Source: Luteitalea sp. TBR-22
GTDB lineage: Bacteria; Acidobacteriota; Vicinamibacteria; Vicinamibacterales; Vicinamibacteraceae
NCBI RefSeq assembly: GCF_016865485.1
Contig: NZ_AP024452.1
Span: forward strand, 2,006,501 to 2,070,500
Direction: 5' to 3'
Length of the DNA stretch: 64,000 nt
In this document: positions 21,896 through 50,084 of the stretch, piece after piece
Layout: each line of letters opens with the position of its first letter
Numbering within the stretch: position 1 is the first letter of the stretch
Notes under the pieces: model-generated
What the model saw: the letters and a program-made list of their open reading frames with translations, nothing else
What the model was told of the DNA's origin: nothing
Databases searched by the model: none
Translations under genes and position numbers: made by a program

Positions 21896-22345
21896 TTACG
21901 TGCGCCCGGGAGGTCCTCCGTCAGGAGTGCCGACCTGCTCCTCGTCGAAGCCCGAGCGATCCTCGCGCAGTTGCCAGGAGCGCAGGTCGCCGGTGCTGTC
22001 GGCGTGCGAGGTGACGATGACGTACGAATACACCGGCCATGCGTGATCGAGGTCGAACTGCGAGGGCACCGCCGGGACGTCCGGGTGCGAGTGGTAGATG
22101 CCGACGACGTCGAGGCCGCGGGCCCGGGCCTCGCGTTCGCCCTTGAGCATCTCCATCGGCCCGATCAGGAAGCGGTTGTGGCGCGCCTCGCTTTCCCGGG
22201 CGTTGGAGATCGGCAGCAGCTCGCGCACCACCCGATCGCCCCCGTCGTCGAACGTGCCGAGCATCAGGCCGCAGCACTCTTCCGGATGCGCCTCCACGGC
22301 GTGCGCCGCGATCGCGGTGCGATGGTCCTGTGGCAGCACGATCAC
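21896..22345 (-). CDS. JAMM/MPN+ metalloprotease (Mec-like)
   Basis: The 149-residue protein is a single JAB1/MPN domain with complete zinc ligands: an upstream Glu (EE at 22-23, in HPEECCGLMLG), H85-S-H87 and the S95..D98 end of the JAMM motif (HSHPDVPAVPSQFD). In mycobacteria the homologue Mec removes cysteine from the sulfur carrier CysO after CysM has loaded it. Here the GTG start overlaps the TGA of the cysteine synthase gene (GTGA, 22342-22345), so the pair is coupled. No CysO/ThiS-like carrier gene is adjacent, so the carrier must be elsewhere or the protease has another substrate. Confidence 0.85.
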   Translation of the reverse strand: MIVLPQDHRTAIAAHAVEAHPEECCGLMLGTFDDGGDRVVRELLPISNARESEARHNRFLIGPMEMLKGEREARARGLDVVGIYHSHPDVPAVPSQFDLDHAWPVYSYVIVTSHADSTGDLRSWQLREDRSGFDEEQVGTPDGGPPGRT

Positions 22346-23355
22346 GCGAGGTCTCCGGTCCAGAAGTCGTCGGTCAGGTAGCGGCTGCCGCCGTCGCAGA
22401 GCACCGTCACGACGACCGACCCCGGCGGCAGATCCCTCGCGAGCCGCAGCGCCGCGACCACGTTGGCGCCGGCGCTGACTCCGACCAGCAGGCCTTCCTC
22501 GCGGGCCAGGCGGCGTGCCATCTCCTGCGCCTCCGTCGTGCCCACCTCCACGGCGTCATCGGCCACCGACGGATCGTAGATGCCCGGCACCACGGCCGTC
22601 GGCATGTGCTTCATGCCCTCGATGCCGTGCAGGGGCAGGTCGGGCTGCATCGAGATGCAGCGGATGGCGGGGTTGAAGTGCTTCAGCCGGCGCGAGGTGC
22701 CGACGAACGTGCCGGAAGTGCCGAGCCCGGCCAGGAAGTGGGTGACGCGGCCCTGCGTCTGCGCCCAGATCTCGGCACCGGTGTGCTCGAAGTGCGCCTG
22801 CCAGTTGGCGGCGTTGTTGTACTGGTCGGCGTAGAAGTACCGATCGGGATCGCGTTCGACCAGGCGCCTGGCTTCGCGCTGCGCGCCATCGGTGGCCGAC
22901 AGCGGGTCGGTTTCGATCACCTCGGCGCCATAGATGTGCAGCAGGCGCTTGCGTTCCGGACTGGCCGTGGCCGGCAGGCAGACGGTGACCGGATAGCCGA
23001 GCGCGGCGCCAATCATGGCGTAGGCGATGCCGGTGTTGCCGCTGGTCGCGTCGAGGATGGTCTTGCCGGGCCTCAGGTCGCCGCTGCGAAGCCCATCGAG
23101 CAGCATCGCCAGGGCGGCGCGGTCCTTCACCGAGCCGCTCGGGTTGAGGTGCTCGGCCTTGGCGTGCACTTCCACGCCGTCGGGAATGCCTGCCTGCGGC
23201 CCGGCCACGTGCCGCAGGCGCAGCAACGGGGTGTTGCCGACCTGCTCGATGATGCTGCCCGCGCCCGGGCGCGCAGCGCTCGCCGACGGCAACCCGAACG
23301 TCGGGATGCCCGGCGGGCGCGTCGCCATGACCGGCGTGATCGCTGAAGGGGTCAC
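22342..23355 (-). CDS. cysM: PLP-dependent cysteine synthase (CysK/CysM family)
   Basis: The 337-residue fold-type II PLP enzyme has IIEQVGNTPLLRL, the PLP lysine K77 in NPSGSVKDRAA, the phosphate/asparagine loop SGNTGIA (105-111) and GLGTSGTFVGTSRRLK. It replaces the beta-substituent of O-acetyl- or O-phosphoserine with sulfide or a thiocarboxylate to give cysteine. Coupling to a Mec-like JAMM protease favours a CysM-type role. I chose the GTG at 23355 because AGAGGA lies 6-7 nt upstream. ATG 23328 has no such site. Upstream lie a polycysteine leader ORF and an intrinsic terminator, so attenuation by cysteine supply is likely. Confidence 0.88.
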   Translation of the reverse strand: MTPSAITPVMATRPPGIPTFGLPSASAARPGAGSIIEQVGNTPLLRLRHVAGPQAGIPDGVEVHAKAEHLNPSGSVKDRAALAMLLDGLRSGDLRPGKTILDATSGNTGIAYAMIGAALGYPVTVCLPATASPERKRLLHIYGAEVIETDPLSATDGAQREARRLVERDPDRYFYADQYNNAANWQAHFEHTGAEIWAQTQGRVTHFLAGLGTSGTFVGTSRRLKHFNPAIRCISMQPDLPLHGIEGMKHMPTAVVPGIYDPSVADDAVEVGTTEAQEMARRLAREEGLLVGVSAGANVVAALRLARDLPPGSVVVTVLCDGGSRYLTDDFWTGDLA

Positions 23356-23453: not shown

Positions 23454-23489
23454 GAAACACGAAAGCCACCATCCCTTCCGGATGATGGC
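23454..23489 (-). terminator. Attenuator terminator upstream of cysM
   Basis: On the minus strand GCCATCATCC, loop GGAAG, GGATGGTGGC form a 10-bp stem (one G-U), followed directly by TTTCGTGTTT. It lies between the leader stop codon (23525) and the cysM start (23355), so it must be read through for expression. The tail is the same as in the attenuator at 52855-52890. An alternative pairing of CGGATGA (23525-23531, leader end) with TCATCCG (23479-23485) would break it. Confidence 0.75.
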
Positions 23490-23524
23490 CTCGCGGTGGT
23501 GCCGGTGCTACTGGCGCCTGGGTC

Positions 23525-23599
23525 TCATCCGTACACGACGTCCTGCCTGCGACAGCAGGCGGGACAACAGCACGGACAAGCGCAGGCGCGGACGAGCAT
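23525..23599 (-). CDS. Polycysteine leader peptide of the cysM operon
   Basis: A 24-codon ORF starts MLVRACACPCCCPACC and then runs RRQDVVYG to its stop. Seven of the first 16 residues are cysteine, far above chance. A 6-bp hairpin (GCCTGC / GCAGGC, 23545-23560) overlaps the last Cys codons and could act as a pause site. An intrinsic terminator begins 35 nt after the stop codon. This is the layout of an amino-acid attenuator: scarce Cys-tRNA stalls the ribosome on the Cys run and frees CGGATGA to form the antiterminator. Polycysteine leader ORFs acting this way are known in mycobacteria. The regulation here is inferred. Confidence 0.72.
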   Translation of the reverse strand: MLVRACACPCCCPACCRRQDVVYG

Positions 23600-23611
23600 G
23601 GCGACGGATCG

Positions 23612-23617
23612 ATGATA
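23612..23617 (-). promoter_or_regulatory. -10-like element for the cysM leader transcript
   Basis: TATCAT on the minus strand, 12 nt before the leader ATG, which predicts a 5' untranslated region of only about 5-6 nt. No convincing -35 is visible. The space where it would be overlaps a GGGAGGC heptamer array. Confidence 0.4.
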
Positions 23618-23628
23618 CACCCCCTGCC

Positions 23629-23656
23629 GGGAGTCGGGAGGCGGGAGGCGGGAGGC
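23629..23656. repeat. Heptamer array, GGGAGGC type
   Basis: Four exact 7-bp units: GGGAGTC, GGGAGGC, GGGAGGC, GGGAGGC. It lies in the divergent region between the cysM leader and the plus-strand oxidoreductase. Confidence 0.65.
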
Positions 23657-23803
23657 GCGCCCGGTGCCCGGTGCCCGACTCGACCCAGTTGCCGTCCGGA
23701 GCGTTCCGCAGCAGAATGCGCGCATCGGTTCCGGAATCGACCGTCGCGCCGACCCGTCCTTCCACGGGCACGCACGGCCAGCCGATGCGGTCAGGAGCAC
23801 ACA

Positions 23804-49323: not shown

Positions 49324-50084
49324 GACTGTTCCTGGGCGTCGCGCGCCGCCACCGGCGTGAGGACGCGATGCAGTCCGCACTCCTTCTTGGAGGCCTCCCA
49401 CCACCACCGGCCGGCGCGCGGGTCCTCGCCCGGCGCGATGGGGCGGGTGCATGGCGCGCAGCCGATGCTCACGTAACCCTGGGCGTGCAGGGGGTTGTCG
49501 GGCACGTCGTGCTCGTCGAGGTAGGCGACGACCTCGTCGAGCGACCACTCGATGAGCGGGTTCAACTTGAGCAGGCCGTAGCCCTCGTCCCACTCCACGA
49601 TGCGCATGCCCTGCCGGTTGGCCGACTGCTCGCGCCGCAGGCCGGTCACCCACACGCGCACGCCCTGGAGCGCCCTCGCCAGCGGCCGCACCTTGCGCAA
49701 CTCGCAGCAGGCCTTGCGGTCGTCCACCGACGCGCGGAAGCTGTGGTGGCCCCGCGTGCCGACGAACACCTCGACCTCGGCCGCGTCCGGGAAGTAGACC
49801 TCGATCTGGCGCCCGTACCGCTCGCGTGTCGCGTCGATGAGCGCGTGGGTCTCCTCGAAGAGGCGGCCGGTGTCGAGCGTGAAGATGCGGATCGGGATGT
49901 CGTGGGTCCAGATCGCGTCGGTGATCACCTGGTCTTCCTGGCCGAGCGACGTCGAGAACGCCACCGTGCCGGGGAAGCGGTCGGCCACCAGGCGGAGGCG
50001 GCCGGGAAGGTCGAGGGCCTCGAGCGCCGAGGCGAGGGCATGCAGGTCGTGGGTGTCGTGGTGTGTGGCCATGGGAGAAGTCAT
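49320..50084 (-). CDS. cysH: APS reductase (CysH family, Fe-S type)
   Basis: The 254-residue protein has the PAPS_reduct fold with VAFSTSLGQEDQVI (P-loop-like), TLDTGRLFEETH, the catalytic KKECGLH near the C-terminus (C about 236), and two cysteine pairs (KACCELRK near 126-127, CAPC near 208-211). The paired CC...CxxC binds a [4Fe-4S] cluster and marks enzymes that use APS rather than PAPS. It makes sulfite from APS with thioredoxin. The ATG overlaps the permease stop codon (50081-50084). ATP sulfurylase genes are not in this window. Confidence 0.92.
   Translation of the reverse strand: MTSPMATHHDTHDLHALASALEALDLPGRLRLVADRFPGTVAFSTSLGQEDQVITDAIWTHDIPIRIFTLDTGRLFEETHALIDATRERYGRQIEVYFPDAAEVEVFVGTRGHHSFRASVDDRKACCELRKVRPLARALQGVRVWVTGLRREQSANRQGMRIVEWDEGYGLLKLNPLIEWSLDEVVAYLDEHDVPDNPLHAQGYVSIGCAPCTRPIAPGEDPRAGRWWWEASKKECGLHRVLTPVAARDAQEQS

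Follow-up and report, generated by a model that had tools for sequence, protein, structure and literature searches.

Polycysteine leaders of cys genes were predicted in Actinobacteria in 2005, with no conserved terminators found (PMC1262725). Those of M. smegmatis are reported to act on translation (Canestrari 2020, as that work is cited in PMC9031893 and PMC13236596). An earlier note on the DNA studied here, which held that mycobacterial polycysteine ORFs work by terminator-based attenuation, is contradicted by these reports as far as the cited accounts go. The uORFC-8-2 motif, located upstream of cysS in Rhodobacterales, carries tandem Cys codons in its first stem and has an intrinsic terminator downstream of that stem, and ribosome-mediated transcription attenuation on Cys-tRNA has been proposed for it (PMC8632094). 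A 2010 survey found that almost no predicted attenuators of Acidobacteria have known functions (PMC2965389), and nothing further on cysteine leaders in this group was found among open-licence papers.

The window analyzed here is a stretch of 64,000 nucleotides from Luteitalea sp. TBR-22 (Acidobacteriota), whose genome is a single contig of 6.47 Mb. The earlier note had described in it an ORF of 24 codons, seven of the first 16 coding for Cys, a 6-bp hairpin across the final Cys codons, a 10-bp stem with a tail 35 nt later, and complementary CGGATGA and TCATCCG motifs, all upstream of cysM and a JAMM partner gene. All of these features are present, at the positions given below.

Leader ORF, hairpins and downstream genes

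The leader ORF (MLVRACACPCCCPACCRRQDVVYG, followed by the stop) has 24 codons and lies on the minus strand at 23525..23599, running from the ATG at 23599 to the TGA at 23525. Its codons (minus 23599-23525) are ATG CTC GTC CGC GCC TGC GCT TGT CCG TGC TGT TGT CCC GCC TGC TGT CGC AGG CAG GAC GTC GTG TAC GGA TGA. The putative regulatory stretch of codons 6-16 (23552..23584, minus) includes seven Cys, at codons 6, 8, 10, 11, 12, 15, and 16. Searches of NCBIfam, Pfam, and Rfam gave no match for the leader peptide or the RNA region, and no T-box or riboswitch assignment resulted from the Rfam search at E values up to 1. The hexamer TATCAT (23612..23617, minus), 18 nt before the leader ATG, is a possible -10 element, although a weak one that stands without a -35 and is not above chance. 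A strict consensus scan of the window region revealed no promoter, no Shine-Dalgarno sequence is evident for the leader, and -10 motifs upstream of leaders across the set of leader loci were at chance level (3.5 vs 3.3 in shuffles).

Directly upstream of the leader is a C-rich stretch (CGCCTCCCGCCTCCCGCCTCCCGACTCCCG, 23628-23657, minus). It has approximately 50 further genomic matches at 83-100% identity and therefore appears to be a short tandem repeat dispersed through intergenic DNA. Apart from the leader, the window has a single short ORF dense in Cys (MPASCGAGATGAGSSACSRCCPTCGPAGRRAASRR, 2647-2754, plus), which is probably within coding DNA. A PAPS-reductase-family gene (CysH/CysD type) at 49440-49964 (minus) follows an ABC-transporter permease-like gene, and a search of its surroundings within the window gave no Cys-run leader.

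The putative regulated gene, cysM (22342..23355, minus), has a GTG start at 23355, approximately 100 nt downstream of the terminator-like hairpin. It is predicted to encode a CysO-type cysteine synthase (PALP, E 4e-70), with a TIGR01138 score of 356 bits, below the family's cut-off of 394 bits. The next gene (21896..22345, minus) matches Prok-JAB and encodes a JAMM/Prok-JAB protein, a Mec-like partner of cysM. CysM, CysO, and Mec constitute a sulfur-carrier route to cysteine known from mycobacteria. The operon in relatives consists of cysM, the JAMM gene, and a ThiS/ThiF/rhodanese fusion, and an alternative operon (L116) contains cysM, the JAMM gene, and sulfate adenylyltransferase-type genes.

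The 6-bp hairpin spanning the final Cys codons (GCCTGC-TGTC-GCAGGC; 23545..23560, minus) is placed by folding at the apex of a larger leader hairpin of the pause or 1:2-like type (23514..23589, minus). The Cys codons would pair there with the leader stop region, and CGGATGAG is predicted to be sequestered when no ribosome is present. An intrinsic-terminator-like hairpin of 10-13 bp with its tail (23455..23489, minus) begins 35 nt past the leader stop. Its stem (23465-23489), GCCATCATCC-ggaag-GGATGGTGGC, has 10 bp with one G-U pair and is followed by the tail TTTCGTGTTT (23455-23464), and the G+C content of either 10-bp arm is just 60%. The candidate antiterminator combines a 5' strand, CGGATGA, at the leader stop codon (23525..23531, minus) with its complement TCATCCG, located within the 5' arm and loop of the terminator (23479..23485, minus). 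The fold of 23620-23440 has an energy of -92.5 kcal/mol (z -3.9) and is better than 200 of 200 shuffles, and the terminator hairpin alone has a z of -3.3 against shuffles. A strict terminator consensus scan of the window region did not detect the hairpin at 23455-23489, because its U-tract is interrupted.

Distribution in the genus, the order and other phyla

A second genome of the genus, G002, shares 81% CysM identity with the window. No leader was found in the sequence immediately upstream of its cysM, and scanning farther upstream revealed an orthologue of the same length (MTAPSRTCPLCCLACCCRTDFVCG) that precedes a redoxin-family gene and cysM and lies more than 1 kb from cysM. At this locus (L228, G002:C48, approximately 480-1806, minus), the redoxin/AhpC-TSA family gene sits between the Cys leader with its terminator and cysM, indicating that the attenuator there would head a longer operon. 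The two leaders, of 24 codons each, align with zero indels and have Cys codons 8, 11, 12, 15, and 16 in common, one of them via a synonymous TGT/TGC change. CGGATGAGACCC is identical in the two genomes, as are CGGATGA and TCATCCG. The terminator GCGAGGCCATCATCCGGA..GGATGGTGGC is nearly unchanged while the flanks diverge, and the U-tract is interrupted in G002 as well.

The leader appears to be patchily distributed within the genus and order. No Cys-run ORF was found within the 7 kb examined in a third same-genus genome (G001, 7,480,314 bases), which we take to be the L. pratensis type genome. The leaders in a sister genus are MSRQPFVLASHRDSACRCRCACRLPR and MLSESFVLAHSGPRACRCCRCACRSPR (L012 and L013), and no U-tract hairpin or recognisable terminator was found with them. 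Among the cysM loci of the order, 7 of 75, the window counted, have at least four Cys in eight codons. The earlier note would have counted cysM orthologues without the Cys codons and the terminator against the element. Such orthologues occur in L. pratensis and most Vicinamibacterales, but since others, including the same-genus one in G002, have both, we read their absence as patchy distribution and not as absent function.

A survey was performed on 213 distinct cysM upstream regions, the sources being named genome contigs together with whole genomes belonging to the phylum and order. A leader was defined as a short ORF with at least four Cys in eight codons located 60-420 nt upstream of cysM, and the antisense strand served as control. 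Such ORFs were present in 26 of the 213 regions on the sense strand and in 2 on the antisense strand (Fisher p 1.5e-6), and at least five Cys in eight codons were found in 18 and 1, respectively. Examples are MNKPCYCFCCCVCCVCCWGRDRQSICGGEVEQIS (a Blastocatellia MAG), MSKTRLQNQICCCCCGKHRLRFGVEKM (Pyrinomonadaceae), MRFITRCCCCCCPCCCTAGPGQRRGRTAPA (Roseithermus), MINRAVYACCCCRICVDYPILVRTLQRR (an Ignavibacteriae MAG), and MIVVPCPCCCPCAGEALSISRRCMPVS (a Bacteroidota MAG). Outside the Cys runs the peptides are wholly different between lineages, and terminator sequences also vary from lineage to lineage; retained features are the Cys-codon count and the arrangement of the hairpins.

Sense-strand intrinsic terminators were identified at 20 of the 26 leader loci compared with 17 of the 187 other loci (Fisher p 3.6e-13). 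The distance from leader stop to terminator start is 21-56 nt, with a median of 30. Many of these terminators are textbook-like, such as GCCTCTCCCGGTTCACCGAGAGAGGCTTTTTTT in Roseithermus. Mapped onto the CysM tree, presence of the leader requires 10 changes, with 6 or more of them on well-supported branches, indicating that the leader was gained or lost repeatedly. Phylogenetically independent pairs in which the leader goes with the terminator show the expected direction (3.2 vs 0.2), with too few pairs for a test.

Within the phylum, 5 of 23 cysH/cysD-type loci likewise have a Cys-run leader, with none on the antisense strand (p 0.05), which suggests a cysteine regulon in which the same leader at times occurs without a terminator. 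Clear terminators follow the leaders at two of these loci (L291 and L296), and no U-tract hairpin or obvious terminator was found after the leader at two others (L297 and L299). The Cys-run leaders of the latter two (MASPVICACCCCRMVFACCPR and MVVFVNRACCCCRMLPCPCPRCCR) lie approximately 210-290 nt upstream of cysH/cysD-type genes and are possible translational attenuators of sulfate assimilation genes. Within the same phylum, cysE and cysS loci were also considered as leader targets and rejected, as Cys-rich ORFs in 1 and 2 of 30 loci were not convincing.

Proposed mechanism and rival explanations

Folding with ribosome masks, as the earlier note had proposed, gave a terminator probability of 1.0 at every ribosome position under equilibrium conditions with the complete terminator present. 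Any switch must therefore be kinetic and act while the 3' arm of the terminator is still to be transcribed. The antiterminator model was rerun with ribosome masks on nascent RNA without this arm. For the window, the modelled antiterminator probability was 0.71 with the ribosome at the last Cys codon, 0.26 at the stop, and 0.12 without a ribosome. Over the representatives, modelled pairing of the terminator 5' arm with upstream sequence averaged 0.66 for a ribosome stalled on the final Cys codon, against 0.24 for one that has reached the stop (Wilcoxon 2e-6), a difference of which part is a plain effect of masking. The no-ribosome state over all loci (0.62) is no different from the stalled state, so that sequestration by the leader hairpin would apply only to the window and some relatives.

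In 21 representatives, dinucleotide shuffles served as the baseline for how well the RNA downstream of the final Cys codon pairs with the terminator 5' arm. This pairing was stronger than in shuffles with a combined p of 1e-12, an upper estimate of its strength because related loci are not independent. Perfect antiterminator pairs number 10-12 at some loci (e.g., L103 and L157). Taken singly, the duplex was stronger than shuffles in G002 (p 0.012) and not above shuffles in the window (p 0.21), L035, and L048. The leaders of L152 and L157 start with MCCC (Cys codons 2-4), approximately 180-240 nt upstream of cysM, so that stalling would come almost at initiation; a near-perfect antiterminator match of approximately 12 bp and then a strong terminator follow at both loci.

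We consider the element to be a ribosome-mediated transcription attenuator ahead of cysM that senses charged tRNA-Cys, with a probability of approximately 0.78. This mechanism is favoured by the statistical coupling of Cys leader, terminator, and alternative pairing at cysM loci in several phyla, by the retention of the parts in G002, and by the role of the cysM product in making cysteine. Transcription would start from a promoter close to the ATG and the leader would be translated. When cysteine is plentiful, the ribosome would pass the Cys codons to the TGA and cover CGGATGA, and on RNA without a ribosome this motif would be sequestered by the leader hairpin. In either case the terminator 5' arm would be free to pair with the 3' arm, and transcription would end near 23455. 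Under cysteine shortage, the ribosome would halt on the Cys codons and open the leader hairpin, leaving CGGATGA exposed to pair with TCATCCG once this is transcribed. Terminator formation would thereby be delayed, and RNA polymerase would reach cysM and its JAMM partner. The attenuation logic of the earlier note is upheld to the extent that comparison supports a terminator/antiterminator choice, and has to be narrowed in that the antiterminator cannot win at equilibrium and could act only kinetically.

Given the imperfect U-tract in the window and the lack of a terminator in the sister genus, the main rival is a real cysteine-responsive leader with a translational or Rho-dependent readout, the hairpin before cysM not being an efficient terminator in Luteitalea. 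Interrupted U-tracts in both the window and G002, sister-genus leaders without a terminator, and cysH leaders without a U-tract hairpin (L297 and L299) are all consistent with it, as are the mycobacterial polycysteine ORFs, which are described in the cited accounts as lacking terminators and acting on translation (PMC1262725, PMC9031893). We nevertheless regard this explanation as unlikely, since the terminator stem is almost unchanged between the window and G002 amid diverging DNA, and 20 of the 26 leader loci, for the most part from other organisms, have a clear terminator at a fixed distance. Moreover, more than 1 kb and one redoxin-like gene separate the G002 element from cysM, so in that genome the element cannot work by masking the ribosome site of cysM.

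The Cys-rich peptide might itself sense a metal or a thiol/redox signal, with its folding or stalling controlling cysM. Its CC and CxC runs could bind metal and the G002 operon includes a redoxin-family protein, but a peptide that differs completely between lineages outside the Cys runs, while Cys-codon number and hairpin layout persist, and downstream genes that make cysteine or assimilate sulfate make this very improbable. Slightly less probable still is a chance ORF in intergenic DNA with an unrelated hairpin. The high G+C content of the DNA and the many orthologous cysM loci without a leader would fit such an origin, against which stand the antisense controls (only 1-2 of 213) and the retention of frame length, five Cys positions, and the hairpin in G002.

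The element is very probably a switch turning cysM on when cysteine runs short. We think it somewhat likely that it belongs to an undescribed multi-phylum class of cysteine attenuators, found in Acidobacteriota, Rhodothermales and other Bacteroidota, Ignavibacteriota, and some Chloroflexota. Members of this class would control cysteine synthesis through a sulfur carrier (cysM-mec-cysO) and, in part of the lineages, also the assimilation of sulfate. The leader would have been gained or lost repeatedly and would exist in terminator-type and terminator-less versions. No description of such a cysM switch in the other phyla was found in the open-licence literature. To our knowledge, almost nothing is known about the control of amino-acid synthesis in Acidobacteriota and related soil phyla. 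The element provides a concrete cysteine switch candidate with conserved parts in Acidobacteriota that is open to testing, and it connects such a switch with the CysO/Mec route, of which mycobacteria are the best-known case. One Luteitalea with the leader and one without it offer natural pairs for studying the gain, movement, and loss of attenuators.

Comparison with known systems

The mycobacterial leaderless polycysteine ORFs resemble the Luteitalea element in being short, in carrying runs of Cys codons ahead of cysteine or sulfur genes, and in responding to cysteine (Canestrari 2020, as cited in later papers). In those accounts they lack conserved terminators and act on translation, whereas the Luteitalea element has a conserved terminator-like hairpin with alternative pairing and in G002 lies more than 1 kb from cysM, which does not fit a leaderless ORF controlling downstream translation without a terminator. 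The cysteine leader peptides described here would instead feed a terminator.

The uORFC-8-2 motif is similar in having a short Cys-codon uORF in the first stem, an intrinsic terminator behind it, and a proposed attenuation on Cys-tRNA. It differs in belonging to cysS of alphaproteobacteria and in having just two conserved Cys codons, whereas the present leaders, with a run of 4-9 Cys codons, stand ahead of cysM operons in Acidobacteriota as well as in further phyla. The element lies upstream of cysM and matches none of the Rfam families searched, and for lack of such a match we do not claim homology to uORFC-8-2.

A further parallel in organization is with the classical attenuators of the trp, his, leu, and ilv operons, which share the regulatory codons and alternative hairpins of the 1:2, 2:3, and 3:4 type and have a terminator soon after the leader stop, where the window has its terminator-like hairpin. 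Their short leader, in which codons for the amino acid being made are frequent, appears to have its counterpart in the seven Cys among 24 codons, kept in G002. The intrinsic terminator would correspond to a stable conserved hairpin whose U-tract is interrupted in the window, and clear terminators are present in most of the distant homologous arrangements. A mutually exclusive antiterminator freed by stalling is predicted by modelling across 21 loci, as a kinetic effect only and with p 0.21 for the window singly. Compared with these classical attenuators, the amino acid is cysteine and the host phylum is Acidobacteriota.
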